Source: Chloroflexota bacterium (GTDB lineage: Bacteria > Chloroflexota > Anaerolineae > Anaerolineales > UBA4823). From it: a DNA stretch of 46,493 bases. A model generated the notes under the pieces. That model was not told the DNA's origin. It searched no databases and saw only the letters and a program-made list of their open reading frames with translations. This document shows positions 13,018-35,950 of the stretch, one piece after another (within the stretch, counting starts at the first letter, position 1; each line of letters begins with the position of its first letter). Made by a program: the position numbers and the translations under genes. The stretch is from positions 1-46,493 of the forward strand of contig JAJUJL010000029.1 of assembly GCA_029265355.1 (NCBI GenBank), in the 5' to 3' direction.

Positions 13018-16000
13018 CTATAGGGAGACCACCACCCGGAAACCGTTGCGGCCGTTCCTGTCGTCAGGGGGGTACCAGAAGCGGTAGGCGCAGCAGGTGG
13101 CCCCCTCATCGTCGTCCCACGCGCCGCCGCGCACCACCCGGAGGCCTTCGCCATCCAGCACCTCGCGCCCGTCATCCGCCCGGTAGGGATACTCCTGGTA
13201 CAGGCTGGAGCACCACTCCCAGACGTTGCCGCTCAGCTCTTCCACGCCGTACGGGCTGGCGCTGCCAGGGAAAGCGCCCAGCGCGCTGGTGCTGCGGATG
13301 CCGCTAAAGCCGGTGTTGGCTTTATCCGGTTTAAAAGTTTTCCCCCACGGGTAGACCCGCTGCGCATCATTTTCTCGCCAGGACAGGGTCTTCTCGTCCA
13401 CCTGCCAGCCCAACGCCGGACCGCCGGGAATGGGCTGCAGCGGAACCCGCCAACCGCCGCGGGCAGCCTTCTCCCACTGCGCTTCGGAGGGCAGGCGCAC
13501 CACCCCGCTGGCAGGCAGCAATCCGGCCTCTTTCCAGCGCCGCTCCAGCCAGCAGGTGAAAGCCAGCGCTTCGTACCAGCACACGCCCACCACCGGGTGG
13601 TTGTCCAGGTCGAAGGCGCCGCCGTAGGCATACGGACGATCGGCCTGCTCATCCACGAATTTTTGACCAAGCCATACGCTTCGCCTGATACGCCCGTTTT
13701 CCCAGCGCCCGTGCCGGATGGCAATCTCCCAGTTGCGCTTATCGGCATAGCCGCCATCCTGCACAAACTCGCTGTACTGCGCCTGGGTCACCGGCCAGCG
13801 GGCGATCCAGAAAGAAAGCACGTCCACCGTGTGCACAGGCTTTTCATCCTCAGAAACATCGCTGCCCATCTGGAACTCACCCGACGGCACGTAGCAGAAG
13901 GGCATGCGATCGCAGTGCAGCGCTTCCGGGCGCGGGTCGCCCAGGGCTGCCAGGGCGCGACCGGCCTCGGCGCGCTCCACAGCGGGCAGGCCGCCATCCA
14001 CGACATGCGTCGCCAGCACACCCAGCAATCTCGGTCGCAGCGTTTCAGCCAGCGGCAGGTCGCGCTCCTGCAGCAGTGCAGCGGCTTTGCCCGCCCACAG
14101 CGCCTGGCGGCGCTTTTGCTGGCTGTCCAGGTTGCCTGGGGGCAGCAAGCCGCTCACCATGCGCAGCACATTGCGCCGCGCCGAGGGTCCGCCGTTGTGG
14201 TACAGCTCTTCAGCGCCCAGCTCGACCGCCAGGCTCCAGGCGTCGCCTTCGGCGGCATGGCGGGCGATCTGCTCCTCGGCGTTATCCAGGCTGACCAGGT
14301 AGCAGCCCGCCAGGTATTCCTGGAACGTGCGGTGTGGGAAGCCGTAACTGGTGGGCTTGCCCGGCTCGCCGCCGCGCCCCACCAGCAACCCGGAGCGCTG
14401 GTCGACGTAATCCAGGAAGCGCAGCACCAGGTTGCTGTCGCCGATGTAATCCCTCTCCTCCAGCAGCTCGCGCGCCCGCCAGCGCGGCAGGTCGGCGCTC
14501 TCTTTGGCGCTTTTTCTCGTGAGATGGGCTTCATAAGCCAGCCGCTCCATGATGCGCCGCAGCAAGCGCTCGTTCTTGAGCAGCCTGTTCAGCTCGGAGT
14601 CGTCATCCACCGCCTGCTGACCCTTCTTGAGCTGCTGCCAGCGCACCAGCAAGATCTCGACCGCCTGCTGGTAGAGCTTGACCTTTTCCGGCGGCAGGCG
14701 GAAGTTCTTCTGGTGCACAATGGCCATGATGGTCAGCAGCATAGGGTTGCTGGAAAGCTCCTGCAGCTCCGCATCCAGCGCGGCCTTAGCCAGGTCTTCC
14801 GCCTTATCCTTCCAGGCGTTTTCGGGCCAGTTGCGCCGCAGCGCCTGGGCTTTGTACCACCCCTCAGCGAACAGGCGCACCTGGTCTTCATCAAAACCAG
14901 CCAGCGTGGCGCGCTCGAAGCCGGGCTGCTCGGCTTCCTTCACATAGGAAAGCACCCGGCAGGTGAGCAGCACGCGCTGCAGCGGGAACTCCTCCAGCAG
15001 CGCCTGCACCGCCTGGCGCACCCAGGCGCGCAGCGCCTGCGGCACCTCGTCCAATCCATCCAGCGCCAGCAGGCACTCGCCCGAGCGCAGCGCCTCGTGA
15101 AGCACGGCGCACATACCCGCGTGCAGCTCGGCAGTCGAGGGGCGCTGCAGGTCGTGCTCGATTTGTTCCACAACCGCCTGCAGCAGCGCAAGCTTCTGTT
15201 TGCGCGGCGGCAGCATCTCCAGCTCCTGCGGCTTCAGGCGCGGCGCCAGGTCGCGCAGCGCCAGGAAAACCGGCAACAGGCCCGCCTGGATGCCCGGCGG
15301 GCTGTCTGGGCGCAACCGCAGCTCGGCGGCAGCCAGCCAGGCCAGCAGGTGGCGCGCAAAGGTGCTCTTGCCGCTGCCCGGGTCGCCCAACAAAGCCAAT
15401 TTTTCGCTCTGCGCCGTCGCCTCCAGGGCGCTGAGGGGGCGTTTTTCCCGATTCCCCCGCCCGAGAATGCCCGCTATTCGCCCGCTTGCCACTCCAATAT
15501 CCTGATCTTCATCGCCCTGCGACGCGCTTTCCGTTGTGTTCAGCGCGATATACACATCTTCCAGCGGCACGTTGAAAATTTGCCCGCCTTCGGTCTCCTG
15601 CTCCAGCAGCGGCAGCCACTGGCAATCTTTGTAGAGCTGGCGCAGGTAAGCCTGGCGCGCGGCCGACCTGCCAGCTTTGTGCTCGGCATCGACCAGCGCC
15701 TGAGGATCGAGCTGCAGGATCAATTTCTCGACAAAGTGCTCGATGTACTGCACGCCCACCACGTTGCTACCAGGGGCCATCTCGCCGACGTGCTGATCCA
15801 CCTGGATGTTTTCGATCAGCCTGCGCACCAGCGCCCCTTCACCGGCAGGCAGGTTGCGCGCCTGCAGCGCCTGCTGCACTTCTTTGTCCCGGCGCAGCGC
15901 CTGGTAATGCTCCAGCAGCGGGCGCCAGGTGGGGTCGAAGCCCAGGTAGAATCTCAACGCCAGGAAAAAGTCCAGCAGCCCCTGCTGCTGGTCGGGGTAT

Positions 16001-16326
16001 TTCTCACCCCACTGGCTGACTTGCAGATCGAAGTTGAACGGGTTGGCGGGGTCGAGCAAGGATTCAAGGACCGCTTGCTGGAAGGGCTGGTGGGTCAGAA
16101 GGTCCTTCAATAAGCCTCCAGCCTGGGATCGTTCCACCGCCTGGTCGAAAGCGTACTGGAAGGCTTGGGCTCGTTTTTGCGTCTCCGCGTCTGCCAATCG
16201 CCCGCTCAGCTCCTGGAGTTTTCGCTTGATCGCTTCCTGGGCGGCATCGCCCAGGGCCTTTTTCACCAGCTCTGTACCGGTGAGAAGAGCCGCATTCAAC
16301 AAGGCAAATAATGCAGCAGCGTCCAT
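13018..16326 (-). CDS. DGR target: NACHT NTPase fused to FGE-sulfatase/C-type-lectin domain
   Basis: The 1102-residue protein starts at 16326 behind AGGGG. Residues 1-200 are mostly helical and not assigned to a known effector. A short strand-rich linker (PLEDVYIALN, 254-263) precedes a NACHT-type STAND NTPase with Walker A GDPGSGKST (314-322), Walker B LLALDGLDEVP (419-429) and LLTCR (453-457), followed by a helical arm. From about 811 to the end is a formylglycine-generating-enzyme-like domain (YVPSGEFQMGS, SGNVWEW, RGGAW), a C-type-lectin fold used by DGRs for binding surfaces. The last ~40 residues are the variable repeat. NACHT-FGE proteins act as ligand-sensing switches in predicted conflict systems. 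Here the recognition surface can be diversified. No separate effector gene is seen nearby. Confidence 0.93.
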   Translation of the reverse strand: MDAAALFALLNAALLTGTELVKKALGDAAQEAIKRKLQELSGRLADAETQKRAQAFQYAFDQAVERSQAGGLLKDLLTHQPFQQAVLESLLDPANPFNFDLQVSQWGEKYPDQQQGLLDFFLALRFYLGFDPTWRPLLEHYQALRRDKEVQQALQARNLPAGEGALVRRLIENIQVDQHVGEMAPGSNVVGVQYIEHFVEKLILQLDPQALVDAEHKAGRSAARQAYLRQLYKDCQWLPLLEQETEGGQIFNVPLEDVYIALNTTESASQGDEDQDIGVASGRIAGILGRGNREKRPLSALEATAQSEKLALLGDPGSGKSTFARHLLAWLAAAELRLRPDSPPGIQAGLLPVFLALRDLAPRLKPQELEMLPPRKQKLALLQAVVEQIEHDLQRPSTAELHAGMCAVLHEALRSGECLLALDGLDEVPQALRAWVRQAVQALLEEFPLQRVLLTCRVLSYVKEAEQPGFERATLAGFDEDQVRLFAEGWYKAQALRRNWPENAWKDKAEDLAKAALDAELQELSSNPMLLTIMAIVHQKNFRLPPEKVKLYQQAVEILLVRWQQLKKGQQAVDDDSELNRLLKNERLLRRIMERLAYEAHLTRKSAKESADLPRWRARELLEERDYIGDSNLVLRFLDYVDQRSGLLVGRGGEPGKPTSYGFPHRTFQEYLAGCYLVSLDNAEEQIARHAAEGDAWSLAVELGAEELYHNGGPSARRNVLRMVSGLLPPGNLDSQQKRRQALWAGKAAALLQERDLPLAETLRPRLLGVLATHVVDGGLPAVERAEAGRALAALGDPRPEALHCDRMPFCYVPSGEFQMGSDVSEDEKPVHTVDVLSFWIARWPVTQAQYSEFVQDGGYADKRNWEIAIRHGRWENGRIRRSVWLGQKFVDEQADRPYAYGGAFDLDNHPVVGVCWYEALAFTCWLERRWKEAGLLPASGVVRLPSEAQWEKAARGGWRVPLQPIPGGPALGWQVDEKTLSWRENDAQRVYPWGKTFKPDKANTGFSGIRSTSALGAFPGSASPYGVEELSGNVWEWCSSLYQEYPYRADDGREVLDGEGLRVVRGGAWDDDEGATCCAYRFWYPPDDRNGRNGFRVVVSL
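13025..13144 (-). repeat. DGR variable repeat (VR)
   Basis: This is the 3' end of the target gene, residues 1061-1101, ending one codon before the stop. Relative to the template, 16 residues differ, including 1071-1073 (N to D), 1081 (N to Y), 1083 (N to F), 1084 (R to W), 1085 (N to Y), 1086 (N to P) and 1093 (N to R). The framework RGGAW and NGFRVVVS is untouched. Fourteen of the 16 changes come from adenine substitutions; A to T at 1077 and R to C at 1078 do not. Confidence 0.95.
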
Positions 16327-16383
16327 GGTTCACCCCTGAATCAGAAGAATGGCTTGCTATAAATATACACGAAAAACAAGATC

Positions 16384-17044
16384 ACTGAGGCACTGAAAAA
16401 AAAGAGCACTGAGGCACTGAAAGAAAAAAAGAACACTGAGGCACTGAAACAAAAAGAACACTGAGGCACTGAAAGAAAAGAACACTGAGGCACTGAAAGA
16501 AAAAAAGAACACTGAGGCGCTGAAACAAAAAGAACACTGAGGCACTGAAAAAAAAAGAGCACTGAGGCACTGAAAGAAAATGAAGCACTGAAGTGTTCTT
16601 CAGGGTTCTTTAGTGCCCTCAGTATTCTTCAGTGCCTCAGTGGCCTCAGTGTCTTCAGTGTCTTCAGTGTCTTCAGTGTTCTTCAGTGCCTCAGTGGCCT
16701 CAGTGTCTTCAGTGTCTTCAGTGTTCTTCAGTACCTCAGTGTCTTCAGTGTCTTCAGTGCCTCAGTGGCCTCAGTGTCTTCAGTGTTCTTCAGTGCCTCA
16801 GTGGCCTCAGTGTCTTCAGTGTCTTCAGTGTCTTCAGTGTCTTCAGTGCCTCAGTGGCCTCAGTGTCTTCAGTGTTCTTCAGTGTTCTTCAGTGCCTCAG
16901 TGGCCTCAGTGTCTTCAGTGTCTTCAGTGTTCTTCAGTGCCTCAGTGGCCTCAGTGTCTTCAGTGTTCTTCAGTACCTCAGTGTCTTCAGTGTCTTCAGT
17001 GCCTCAGTGGCCTCAGTGTCTTCAGTGTCTTCAGTGTTCTTCAG
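16384..17044. repeat. inverted array of short ACTGA/TCAGT repeats, upstream of the DGR target
   Basis: The left arm (16384-16587) has eight units of 24-27 bases built on CACTGAGGCACTGAAA plus an A-rich spacer. A CTGAAG-TGTT-CTTCAG hairpin (16588-16603) marks a switch of orientation. The right arm (16604-17044) is made of nine-base-type units such as CTTCAGTGT and CCTCAGTGG. The two arms are inverted relative to each other, so transcripts would fold into a very long imperfect hairpin. There are no unique spacers, so it is not a CRISPR. Reading frames through the array are repeat artefacts. Confidence 0.9.
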
Positions 17045-17427
17045 TTGGCAAAGCGCTTGATCTGCAGGCGAGGGGCGCCGAAATTGAGCAGCAGTCCCAC
17101 TTTATGGCCGGAAGCCTTCAGATAGGATAACGCTTGCACGTAGTGCACGTCCTCCAGCTCGGCGCGCGCCTTCAATTCCACCATCACCCCCTCGATCACG
17201 AAATCCACACGCTTGCTGCCCACTTTTTCGCCCCGGTAATGCACATCCATCCACACTTCCCGAGCGAACATCAAACCCTGAGCCTGCAATTCCAGGGCCA
17301 GGGCTCGTTGGTAAATCACCTCCGGAAAACCCGGTCCCAATTGGCGGTGCACCAGCGTGGCGGCGGCGATAATCTTCGCCGTAACATCGGATTGCGGATA
17401 CTCCGGCTTGACGTGCGCCTCAGTCAT
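17041..17427 (-). CDS. GxxExxY family protein (PD-(D/E)XK-like)
   Basis: The 128-residue product has the defining motif in GPGFPEVIYQ (G33, E36, Y39). It also has a nuclease-like core with D75 (KRVDFVIEG), E84 and K86 (MVELKAR), and a C-terminal HKVGLLLNFG strand. The family resembles PD-(D/E)XK nucleases, but its function is not established. GAGGAGG lies upstream of the ATG at 17427. The start (CACTGATGACTGAGG) and the stop (AACTGA) both fall within ACTGA repeat units, and the gene is enclosed by two repeat arrays. This suggests that gene and arrays form one unit. Confidence 0.9.
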   Translation of the reverse strand: MTEAHVKPEYPQSDVTAKIIAAATLVHRQLGPGFPEVIYQRALALELQAQGLMFAREVWMDVHYRGEKVGSKRVDFVIEGVMVELKARAELEDVHYVQALSYLKASGHKVGLLLNFGAPRLQIKRFAN

Positions 17428-17446
17428 CAGTGCCTATCCTCCTCAT

Positions 17447-17721
17447 CACTGAGGCACTGAGACACTGAGACGCTGAAGTGCTTCAGCATCCCTCAGTAGT
17501 CTCAATGTTCCTCAGTGCCTCAGTGCCCTCAGTGCCTCAGTGCCCTCAGTGCCTCAGTGCCCTCAGTGCCCTCAGTGCCCTCAGTGTTCCTCAGTGCCCT
17601 CAGTGTTCCTCAGTGCCTCAGTGCCCTCAGTGTTCCTCAGTGCATCAGTGTCTTCAGTGTTCCTCAGTGCCTCAGTGCCCTCAGTGTTCCTCAGTGCCCT
17701 CAGTGCCCCAGTGTTCTTCAG
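17447..17721. repeat. second inverted ACTGA/TCAGT repeat array
   Basis: A short left arm (CACTGAGG, CACTGAGA units, 17447-17471) is followed by the perfect hairpin GCTGAAG-TG-CTTCAGC (17472-17487). A long right arm of TCAGTG units with C/T-rich three- to four-base spacers (CCTCAGTGCCCTCAGTGTT type) follows to 17721. The design is the same as that of the array at 16384-17044. The array runs into the stop codon of the GNAT gene. Confidence 0.9.
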
Positions 17722-18191
17722 TACTTCACTCGCTTCTCCATCAGCAAGGCGTCTTCCCCATCCTGGTAATAGGCGGGCCACATACCCGCCTCCTGGTAAC
17801 CCAGGCTGCGGTACAGGTGGATAGCGTTGCGGTTGGAAACGCGCACATTCAGGCGCATGTAAGTCATGCGCGCCTGGCGCTCGCTTTCCAGGAGCAACGC
17901 CGCGCCGATGCCCCGCCCGCGGTGTTCCGGCAGCACGCCCACCGTCGCCACCCAGGCCACGCGCTGCACCCGGCGAATGTCGCAGGCGATGAAGCCCACC
18001 AGCTCGCCGTTCACGCTGGCCTTGAGCCGCACGATATTGGGCAGCGAAAGCACGCCGATGATATCCCACAGGGGCCACATATCGCGGGGGAAGCAAATCT
18101 GCTCCAACCGCCGCACGGCGTTCAAATCACGCCAGGAAGCTGGTTGAATCGAGGCCGGCATGCCAGCGGCGGCAATTCTGTTTCTTTCCAT
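17718..18191 (-). CDS. GNAT-family N-acetyltransferase (RimI-like)
   Basis: The 157-residue protein carries a GNAT fold with the acetyl-CoA loop in VGVLPEHRGRGIGAALL, preceded by a GFIACDIRR strand and followed by LNVRVSNRNAIHLYRSLGY, typical of RimI-like enzymes that acetylate protein N-termini or small amines. The substrate is not predictable. Its last codon and stop (TAC TGA AGA ACA) merge directly into the repeat array. The start at 18191 follows a TAAAAT box by only seven bases and has no clear ribosome binding site; an ATG ten codons later is an alternative. Confidence 0.88.
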   Translation of the reverse strand: MERNRIAAAGMPASIQPASWRDLNAVRRLEQICFPRDMWPLWDIIGVLSLPNIVRLKASVNGELVGFIACDIRRVQRVAWVATVGVLPEHRGRGIGAALLLESERQARMTYMRLNVRVSNRNAIHLYRSLGYQEAGMWPAYYQDGEDALLMEKRVKY

Positions 18192-18270: not shown

Positions 18271-19170
18271 CTACTCTGGCGTGCGCCCCTTCATGAATTC
18301 ACCCAGCAGGCTGGTGAATTCCATGGGGAAGATGTACTTGGTCGCCGGGCTCATGCCCAGGTTTTTGAGCGCCTCGAAATACTGCAGGGTCATCGTCTTC
18401 TGATCGATGTTCTGCGCCACGGAGAAGATCTTGTCCAGGGCGTTGGCGAAGCCCTCGGCGCGCAGCAACTGCGCTTCGCGCTCGCCTTCAGCGCGCAGGA
18501 TAGAGCTCTGTCGCTCGCCCTCGGCGCGCAGGATGGCAGCTTGCTTCTCGCCCTCGGCCACGTTGATCGCCGCTTCGCGCTGGCCGGTCGATTCGGTCAC
18601 CACCGCGCGGCGGTTGCGCTCGGCGGACATCTGGCGGTTCATCGCGTCCTGGATCTCGCGCGGTGGGATGATCTCGCGGATCTCGACGTTGGTCACCTTC
18701 ACACCCCAGCGCTCGGTGACCTCATCCAGGCGCACGCGCAGCAGATTGTTGATCCGTTCGCGCTCGGAAAGCACATCATCCAGCGGGATGCCGCCGATCA
18801 CGGCGCGCAGCGTGGTGGTCGCCATACCCTGGGCAGCCGCTTCGAAGTTGCCCACCTGCAGCACGCTTTGCGTCGGGTCCAAGACTTTGTAGTACCAGAT
18901 GAAGTCCACCGAGATAGCGGCGTTGTCTTTGGTGATCGAGGTCTGGTGTGGGATTTCGCGCACCTGCTCGCGCAGATCGGCTTTCACCCCGCGATCAATC
19001 ACCGGGATCAGGAAGATAATTCCCGGGCCCTTGGCGCCGATACAGCGCCCCAGGCGAAAGACCACCAGGCGCTGGTACTCCGGGATGATGCGGATGGCGC
19101 TGACCACGAACAAGGCCGCGATCAGCAGCACCGCGCCGATCAAACAGGTCAAAAGATTACCGACATTCAT
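18271..19170 (-). CDS. slipin/stomatin-like SPFH membrane protein
   Basis: The 299-residue protein has one N-terminal membrane segment (about 5-25) and an SPFH/band-7 domain (EYQRLVVFRLGRC, PGIIFLIPVIDRG). It continues with VTNVEIREIIPPREIQDAM and a long charged coiled coil with repeated AEGERQ/AEGEREA units (about 205-240). Such proteins oligomerise on the membrane and organise microdomains or control proteases. The start at 19170 has AAAAAAGGAGG upstream. It follows nfeD on the same strand, separated by a dispersed repeat; slipin-NfeD pairs are a conserved bacterial arrangement. Confidence 0.93.
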   Translation of the reverse strand: MNVGNLLTCLIGAVLLIAALFVVSAIRIIPEYQRLVVFRLGRCIGAKGPGIIFLIPVIDRGVKADLREQVREIPHQTSITKDNAAISVDFIWYYKVLDPTQSVLQVGNFEAAAQGMATTTLRAVIGGIPLDDVLSERERINNLLRVRLDEVTERWGVKVTNVEIREIIPPREIQDAMNRQMSAERNRRAVVTESTGQREAAINVAEGEKQAAILRAEGERQSSILRAEGEREAQLLRAEGFANALDKIFSVAQNIDQKTMTLQYFEALKNLGMSPATKYIFPMEFTSLLGEFMKGRTPE

Positions 19171-19188
19171 AGTGCCTCCTTTTTTGAT

Positions 19189-19312
19189 CTTAGCTGACAT
19201 TGCGAGACCAGCGTCGGGTGTTTTTTACCCGCCTGTGCTGGTCGTGGCAATCTCCTATCAGGTCGTTTTGCATGGCCCACATCGTGCGAGCAGCTTTTAT
19301 GATGCCGCCAAG
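19189..19312. repeat. dispersed imperfect palindromic repeat, copy 1
   Basis: The element starts TCTTAGCTGACATTGCGAGA and continues with CTGGTCGTGGCAATCTCCT and a tail through GTGCGAGCAGCTTTTA. TTGCGAGACCAGC and GCTGGTCGTGGCAA form imperfect inverted ends. A longer relative lies at 35142-35340. The CATTGCGAG...GGCAATCTC pattern resembles widespread bacterial REP-like repeats. It sits between nfeD and the slipin gene. Confidence 0.72.
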
Positions 19313-35141: not shown

Positions 35142-35340
35142 TGGTCTTAGCTGTCATTGCGAGATGTTTCCATGACGCTGGAAGCGTCATCCGGTCTGGG
35201 AATGACAGATATGTCATGAGTAGACCAGCGTACTGTGCTGGTCGTGGCAATCTCCTAATCAGGTCATTTTGCGTGGCCCACTACGAGCGACCAGCTTATC
35301 GGGTCATTTTGCATAGCCCACATTGTGCGAACAGCTTTTA
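35142..35340. repeat. dispersed palindromic repeat, copy 2 (longer, with internal duplication)
   Basis: It shares TCTTAGCTGTCATTGCGAGA and TGTGCTGGTCGTGGCAATCT with copy 1 at 19189-19312. It has an extra palindromic insert (GACGCTGGAAGCGTC) and two tandem ~40-base tail units (TCAGGTCATTTTGCGTGGCC and TCGGGTCATTTTGCATAGCC). It fills the convergent gap between the protease and DUF5666 genes (35098-35419). Confidence 0.72.
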
Positions 35341-35357
35341 GGGTTCGGCGCAAGACA

Positions 35358-35419: not shown

Positions 35420-35950
35420 CTATCCGTCGCGGCCGCTGTCGTCATCATCATCGTCATGGCCGCCTTTGTCATCGTCGTCGCCAGAACCATCGTCATCATC
35501 GCCATTGCTGTCGTCGTCGTAGCTGTCATCGTCGTCGTAGCTGTCATCGTCGTTGTAGCTGTCGTCACCCATATAGTCGGCCGGGTCATCGTCGTTGCTG
35601 TGCTCATCCAAGCCGGTCTGCCCGGGTGCAGCCGGTTCGATCTCGCGTGCCACAAGCGTCCCAGCAGCATTCAGCGAGGCATGCACCTTGACAAAGCTGC
35701 CCACCACCGGAGCGCCTTCGACCTCAGTCTGCGGCAATACAGTGAAGGCGATACCGTTGACCGTCCAGGTAGGGCCTTCGACCGAATCCAGCGTGCCATA
35801 GAATTCTATTTCGCCTGAGAAAGAACGATCTCCAGCCGCCGGGCGTGGATCCTCGCCGGTCAACTCACGGGCAAAAGCCACACCCACCAGGCTCAATGCC
35901 AGGGCAGCGAAAACCAATACGGGAAGCAGAAAACGGGAAATGCGGTTCAA
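35420..35950 (-). CDS. secreted DUF5666-like protein with Asp/Ser-rich tail
   Basis: The 176-residue product has a signal peptide (MNRISRFLLPVLVFAALALS, cleavage near 28) and a small beta domain (FSGEIEFYGTLDSVEGPTWT, FTVLPQTEVEG, VGSFVKVHASLN), as in DUF5666 proteins. The C-terminal ~55-residue tail is almost only Asp, Ser, Gly and Tyr (DDDSYDDDD units). The tail could bind calcium or other cations or be a spacer. The start codon is TTG at 35950, five bases after the amidohydrolase stop, with no clear ribosome binding site, so coupling is likely. It is the last gene of the operon. Confidence 0.78.
   Translation of the reverse strand: MNRISRFLLPVLVFAALALSLVGVAFARELTGEDPRPAAGDRSFSGEIEFYGTLDSVEGPTWTVNGIAFTVLPQTEVEGAPVVGSFVKVHASLNAAGTLVAREIEPAAPGQTGLDEHSNDDDPADYMGDDSYNDDDSYDDDDSYDDDSNGDDDDGSGDDDDKGGHDDDDDDSGRDG

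Follow-up and report, generated by a model that had tools for sequence, protein, structure and literature searches.

What are two long arrays of a short, strictly oriented repeat doing between neighbouring genes of a Chloroflexota bacterium? The window, by which is meant the whole stretch of DNA that was analysed (46,493 nucleotides), is the entire contig C9 of a genome of 5.05 Mb in 64 contigs (G000). The initial annotation described two separate intergenic ACTGA/TCAGT arrays of identical architecture and expected very long imperfect hairpins in their transcripts. The arrays and their common architecture are real (16383-17045 and 17447-17722, each with a short plus-strand arm, a hairpin and a long minus-strand arm), and the three genes that neighbour them are co-directional, as described. 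The arrays are not separate, however; they flank a single GxxExxY nuclease gene, in a layout that recurs at most loci of the family examined.

Two arrays and the nuclease between them

The features at and around the arrays are as follows.

13018..16326, minus strand: NACHT NTPase with a C-terminal FGE-sulfatase domain, 1102 aa (profile match)
16383..16600, plus strand: array 1, short arm; period about 25, with 17 units of the CACTGA type (CACTGAGGCACTGAA and A/G-rich filler)
16588..16603, no strand: array 1, central hairpin CTGAAG-TGTT-CTTCAG (read from the sequence)
16601..17045, minus strand: array 1, long arm; 47 CACTGA-type units, period 9
17041..17427, minus strand: GxxExxY / PDDEXK_3 nuclease gene, 128 aa (open reading frame plus profile matches)
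17447..17472, plus strand: array 2, short arm; 3 units
17473..17486, no strand: array 2, central hairpin CTGAAG-TG-CTTCAG (read from the sequence)
17487..17722, minus strand: array 2, long arm; 24 units, counted over 17473-17722
17718..18191, minus strand: GNAT acetyltransferase, rimI-like, below the rimI cut-off (profile match)

The orientation of the units is absolute within each arm. The pattern [CT][AG]CTGA occurs 17 times on the plus strand and never on the minus strand of the short arm of array 1, and 47 times on the minus strand and never on the plus strand of its long arm; in array 2 the counts are 3 plus and 0 minus for 17447-17472, and 0 plus and 24 minus for 17473-17722. CACTGA/TCAGTG is found 60 times in array 1 and 25 times in array 2, compared with at most 2 in any of 472 random 664-bp pieces from the rest of the window, and both arrays were also called by TRF. 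The units are tandem, 8-9 bp long and without unique spacers, and the initial view that these are not CRISPRs stands. The nuclease gene ends within array 1, where an ACTGA supplies its TGA stop (17041-17043), and the GNAT gene likewise takes its TGA stop (17718-17720) from the last TCAGT of array 2. Since the arrays, together with these stop-codon overlaps, flank the nuclease reading frame, we treat array, nuclease and array as one cassette. Copy number in the arrays may be collapsed, because their length is taken from a draft contig. The neighbours of the cassette are protein-coding genes, not rRNA. The NACHT/FGE-sulfatase protein that adjoins it has no PADLOC match, and a defence system was rejected as a candidate after PADLOC returned 0 matches for three proteins. 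TRF called further tandem repeats in the window at 18451-18558, within the Band_7 gene 18271-19200, and at 35258-35344 and 35507-35566.

The protein scores 124.4 bits against TIGR04256 (GxxExxY; cut-off 35) and 122.1 bits against PF13366 (PDDEXK_3; cut-off 22), the latter being its sole Pfam match at 0.001. We know of no function for GxxExxY, which is a family name. The window nuclease carries E36, D75, E84-x-K86 and Q98-xxx-Y102; in 50 sequences E36, D75 and E84 are invariant and K86, Q98 and Y102 nearly so (window numbering). The QxxxY motif is a mark of RecB-like nucleases. A Foldseek search with the AF2 model (pLDDT 92.9) had a best E of 1.1e-3 and none at 1e-3 or below; the top structural match among the VIA entries listed was SSO0001 (4ic1; Z 10.1), which we take to be a Cas4 nuclease. 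The remaining VIA entries listed have Z of 8.0 or less, and include AddAB, MGME1, LHK-Exo and Holliday-junction enzymes, which prove little alone; no solved structure with a sequence relationship to the window nuclease was found. The likeness to Cas4, RecB and lambda-exonuclease consists of the E, D, ExK and QxxxY residues and of SSO0001 as top structural match. Cas4 proper has four cysteines that hold an Fe-S cluster, whereas the 128-residue window protein has 0 cysteines and so no such cluster; it adjoins no CRISPR array, and stands alone between its own repeats.

Fourteen pairs of nuclease genes were tried for dN/dS. Four gave no dS; 9 of the 10 that yielded a value lie at 0.02-0.10, and the other, with a dS of only 0.014, gave 0.79. 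To judge from these substitutions the nuclease gene is maintained. Purifying selection of this strength could also be explained by a role in the host.

Inward-pointing arms and their code in the nuclease family

Within the phylum, 59 of the 301 genomes scanned carry PF13366. A set of 132 loci was assembled from the window genome (2), the phylum scan (29), extra genes at locus L069 (2) and further searches (19 and 80). Loci were chosen by best E-value and not at random, the last 80 being the best of 580. Six loci with flanks below 200 bp were dropped, leaving 126. These do not count as independent cases: L081, L082 and L086 are orthologues of one another, L060 lies at their site, and other pairs are related. 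The 69 loci with long flanks supplied distal controls, taken 2 kb out.

In a motif-free test, the downstream flank was reverse-complemented and the upstream flank aligned to it locally, the threshold being the 95th percentile of the 69 distal controls. An inverted repeat across the gene was found at 91 of 126 GxxExxY loci versus 4 of 69 controls. A repeat common to both flanks in direct orientation was present at 38 of 126, including window-like loci that have full hairpins on both sides. Unit chains were then defined as two or more C[AG]CN[AG]A[AGT] with 8-12 bp spacing that point toward the gene, a pattern derived from the same loci. Two-sided chains flank 91 of 126 GxxExxY genes compared with 0 of 69 distal controls, and a chain on any side was seen at 117 of 126 versus 16 of 69; at PF05635 genes, two-sided CRCNRAG-like chains number 0 of 29. 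Each of the two-sided tests, by alignment and by chains, leaves 35 of the 126 loci negative. The modal arm has three units at spacing 9, and ahead of these come a T-rich stretch and then A/C. The CRCNRAG units are not palindromes and follow one another in direct tandem within an arm. From the end of the upstream arm to where the HMM match begins, the median distance is 40 nt (106 loci). With a slightly wider unit pattern, 55 of 76 named loci are positive, spanning 13 of 17 NCBI phyla and including 3 of 3 archaeal loci, as are 39 of 50 loci from genome searches. The layout is also present in single-contig genomes, such as G134 (L037) and G112 (L080). We regard the association of this nuclease with such arms as practically certain.

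Some GxxExxY genes are flanked by repeats outside CRCNRAG (L050, L062, L333, L334, L340 and L068, with ACAGGAT, CATGATT, CCAGGAA and CGGAATAAA), so that the pattern applied in this analysis captures only part of the code. At L072 (about 2632-2664 of that locus, G061:C77), a flank sequence of about 31 bp is repeated many times in five genomes of the genus.

The two arms of a cassette resemble each other in what they spell. Across 91 loci the similarity between upstream and downstream arm profiles is 0.866, compared with 0.57 when shuffled and a maximum of 0.627 in 2000 shuffles. At 71 loci both arms have three units; here the variable unit letters match in 84% of cases between arms of one cassette versus 55% between loci, and spacer length agrees in 92% versus 36%. 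The letters of spacers of equal length agree in only 45% between arms versus 36% between loci, within a shuffle maximum of 53%. That spacer letters differ while unit letters and spacer length agree suggests a code read by a protein, not a base-paired hairpin: the spacers of a stem would have to complement each other, a demand that does not arise for a protein reading phased units.

The unit letters track the nuclease tree. For 120 loci, position 4 requires 28 changes on the tree versus a minimum of 34 in 1000 shuffles, position 7 requires 7 versus a minimum of 11, and position 5 requires 22 versus 23, while position 2, with 23, equals its shuffle minimum. The window family provides a case in point, from a search of its taxonomic family that lies outside the 126-locus counts. 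A relative of the window protein is present in 26 of 38 genomes of that family, and the four nearest (L329-L332) are 61-65% identical to it. The unit chains of L329, L330 and L331 have mainly T at position 4, as in the window (L331 is mixed T/A in one arm, and L330 has an upstream chain only); L332 has no unit chain. More distant family relatives have A or G at this position, or units outside the pattern (CATGATT in L333). T is the main letter at position 4 in just 7 of the 120 loci, the window included. The simplest reading of this code, predicted from sequence comparison, is that the nuclease binds its own arms.

Gene-less copies and exchange of cassettes

Arrays of this kind also occur apart from the gene. 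The window genome has two PF13366 matches, the second of which (C61:49330-49677) has an inverted repeat of the unit CACGAAT on both flanks. A 15-base pattern of the window unit matches 31 times genome-wide, with 24 of the matches in the window arrays and 0 for the backward control. The genome search proposed at the outset thus did find relatives, as gene-less arrays of the window unit at three places on C36 and on C41 and C46. When position 4 was left free, in a pattern that fixes spacing 8 and GG (backward control 0), all 25 matches in the genome read CACTGAG, with T; 21 are in the cassette and 4 outside, and 3 of these 4 are in a prophage on C36. The C36 arrays are at 111801, 115312 and 125275 (L033), the first two immediately 3' of stop codons, and the stretch is recognised as a prophage by its tail tape-measure, major tail and head-protease matches. 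CACGAAT is found in tandem elsewhere in the genome once, on C60, by eye as a gene-less two-arm copy.

In other genomes the numbers can be far greater, with up to 420 three-unit arrays (G102) and a control of 0. Five or more arrays are present in 35 of 59 genomes with PF13366, compared with 10 of 242 without it (Fisher p 4e-21, a value that ignores genome relatedness); some of these 10 genomes are incomplete. Within the G102 genus, one cassette has a downstream arm that is found again elsewhere as an element of about 66 bp, and a query that includes the element has at least 45-56 matches per genome. The two-arm form and intergenic position of gene-less copies were seen in examples only.

A clean empty site or target-site duplication was not found in about 800 kb compared among four genomes of one genus (about 280, 300, 160 and 60 kb). 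Eight of 99 flank comparisons appeared shorter; the 5 that were inspected are not clean insertions, and show, in four alignments, several stacked repeat families or differences in unit number. At orthologous places, either the arrays differ by units or entire intergenic stretches differ. At one intergenic site shared by G034 and G102, a GxxExxY cassette is present in one genome and stacked gene-less repeats in the other.

Exchange is most readily followed in G072 (L069, G072:C14:54000-70000), where three GxxExxY cassettes with three different units lie within 6 kb. One arm at this locus forms an amplified series of about 12 copies, at a period of 38 bp. The middle address was readable in 11 of 12 relatives fetched, with units and remains judged by eye. 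Four have a cassette, with CGCGGAT-like units in G302, G307 and G324 and CACGAAT, as in G072, in G313. Two have a gene-less two-arm copy (CACAGAT in G334 and CGCTAAT in G322), three have remains (G096, G028 and G248), and two have no recognisable arm (G315, and G314, which was seen in part). The middle-address proteins cluster by repeat unit rather than by host: identity is 94% for G302-G307, 86% for G302-G324 and 80% for G072-G313, compared with 74% for G302-G072, with the caveat that the G072 middle protein is also 80% identical to the protein of its own third cassette, a value equal to that for G313. Between G302 and G072 the flanking DNA is 86-89% identical, and the protein of the neighbouring cassette is 94% identical. 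The simplest account of this address requires that a complete cassette was replaced at least once. It does not involve a recent transfer between G302 and G307, since the DNA of the site (80%) has diverged about as much as its flanks (77-80%). Flanks that are more than 90% identical surround different cassettes in the pairs L047/L072 and L060/L082, and suggest exchange there as well. Taken together, the evidence links the gene and its arms as one unit in inheritance and in replacement, and shows arrays that occur apart from this unit.

Phage origin of the cassette was rejected: the L037 protein has 0 matches in 50,697 phage records. The same query matches 8 of 72,556 plasmid records, and a single-pattern scan of 2.9 million viral contigs gave 3 loci, with arm-like flanks by eye.

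Readings of the cassette and its known relatives

We consider it probable that this is a one-gene selfish cassette, in which a RecB/Cas4-like nuclease lies between its own recognition repeats and has a RAYT/REPIN-like way of working. The nuclease would bind its own arms, with units and spacing as the code, and would cut at or near them; repair of the break would then copy the arms, with or without the gene, to new intergenic places or over other arms. Gene-less copies would be non-autonomous derivatives of the selfish element, and the long window arrays may be arms that grew by slippage or unequal repair after cuts.

Several other readings must be weighed against this one. The units could be operators, bound by the GxxExxY protein (or by some other factor) to control its own gene along with others, with a host role of the nuclease in DNA repair or defence and dispersal as a secondary matter. 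The median of 40 nt between the upstream arm and the HMM match, the strong purifying selection and the fixed spacing within a cassette speak for such sites. Operators would not, however, account readily for the same arm, inverted, 3' of the gene, for gene-less two-arm copies, for genomes that hold hundreds of arrays, for three prophage arrays of which two are directly behind stop codons, or for the exchange of whole cassettes, and no PADLOC model matches; we hold a regulatory role to be unlikely. A slim chance is left to an element that acts as RNA, in which the arrays form long hairpins in the transcript, comparable to the stems of 23S rRNA intervening sequences, that serve in processing by RNase III, in stability or in attenuation, and the reading frame is a passenger. 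Both arrays are predicted to fold better than shuffled sequences (z -13.0 for array 1 in 20 shuffles and -5.5 for array 2 in 100), and intervening sequences, in the available part of their description, likewise pair a reading frame with terminal inverted repeats (PMC4990558). Pairing would nevertheless conserve units, lengths and spacers alike, whereas spacer letters, unlike unit letters and spacer length, are little shared between the arms; in the common form a whole gene separates the two arms, and the unit letters follow the protein tree. A function of two separate arrays as long RNA hairpins processed at the centre is not supported. An Rfam scan gave 0 matches at gathering score and 12 below threshold, mostly to microRNA families and attributable to chance.

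It is also conceivable, if quite improbable, that the repeats spread alone or by another enzyme, and that the GxxExxY gene inserts into them or survives best there. Gene-less copies at an address that elsewhere holds a cassette, the ten genomes with arrays but without a PF13366 match, and the existence of insertion sequences that target REPs (PMC1525189, seen in part) would all agree with a passenger gene. Against a passenger, the unit letters follow the nuclease tree, the three chain-bearing members of the four nearest relatives of the window protein have mainly T at position 4 (the main letter at 7 of 120 loci), albeit mixed in one arm of one of them, and at one address the proteins group by repeat variant and not by host. 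Ordinary minisatellite growth or an assembly artefact deserves hardly any credence. The window arrays are indeed tandem repeats in a draft contig, but relatives elsewhere in the genome and a layout found at 91 of 126 loci in many assemblies, single-contig genomes among them, also answer the concern, raised at the outset, that the arrays might be isolated or artefactual. For the architecture this explanation is already contradicted, and array length alone remains subject to it.

The selfish nuclease cassette has its closest parallel in the RAYT/REPIN system. From the portions of the accounts available (PMC2817692, PMC3116915), both consist of a small single gene between inverted repeats, both have gene-less repeats in up to hundreds of copies (the window genome itself has only a few), and in both the variants of repeat and enzyme are linked. 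By the same partial accounts they differ in that the enzyme of the cassette belongs to the PD-(D/E)XK nucleases and not to the HUH/Y1 tyrosine transposases, and in that the units of the cassette are short non-palindromic iterons at fixed spacing that lack a GTAG-type head, whereas REPs are single palindromes that often have one. Insertion sequences and their MITEs, with DDE transposases, share terminal inverted arms and gene-less derivatives with the cassette; unlike them, it has no DDE transposase domain, no target-site duplication was seen in the stretches compared, and its arms are iteron tracts of variable length. The lifestyle is REPIN-like, and the enzyme and the repeat code may set the cassette apart as a class of its own.

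A second comparison is with 23S rRNA intervening sequences, which, according to the part of PMC4990558 available, have a small ORF (S23p, a four-helix bundle) and terminal inverted repeats and are considered selfish. Their protein is S23p/PF05635, whereas that of the cassette is PF13366; the window cassette is not in an rRNA gene, and GxxExxY arms are not complementary in their spacers. PF05635 (23S_rRNA_IVP) genes were examined at loci L169-L198, among them L170 of the window genome (C41:216-530). Seventeen of 29 lie between inverted arrays above threshold, compared with 0 of 26 one kb out, and their units are TTAGCGG- or ATCAGTT-like and differ from those of GxxExxY. Parts of two other papers describe four-helix-bundle genes near cas4/cas6 (PMC3936711) and rRNA insertions (PMC11270868). 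The TAACTGA repeats of marine Beggiatoaceae, to which the arrays had been loosely likened, are in the available part of PMC4679880 also short, intergenic and present in many copies. They are, however, heptamers, nearly all in direct orientation (one inverted among 170 sets), and by eye resemble the arrays that flank PF05635 more than those of the window, possibly as members of the same class. The word 'nuclease' is absent from the main text of that paper.

It is tempting, at somewhat less than even odds, to see in GxxExxY cassettes a new minimal class of mobile element of bacteria and archaea, in which a stand-alone nuclease would read an iteron code, spread its arms with or without the gene, and compete with differently coded cassettes for intergenic addresses, PF05635 cassettes being a parallel class with another code. 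In the partial coverage of open-licence literature, nothing linked GxxExxY with repeats, and mentions of the family were incidental; open-licence full texts contained no PDDEXK_3 and no match for two literal repeat strings, and no name was found for repeats of the CACAGAG, CACGAAG and CACTGAG types. Should the selfish-cassette reading hold, GxxExxY proteins would be specialised to serve an extensive group of intergenic repeats, these three types and others, and the RAYT/REPIN lifestyle would have been reached with a second kind of enzyme. Nature would then offer a range of nucleases whose variants each go with a DNA code of their own, from which the recognition code could be read, and the function of GxxExxY, and perhaps of S23/four-helix-bundle, cassettes would become a question of binding and cutting. 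The two kinds of gene can be near neighbours: in G120 (C3:821441-822831; L083 and L195) a GxxExxY gene and a PF05635 gene lie less than 1 kb apart.
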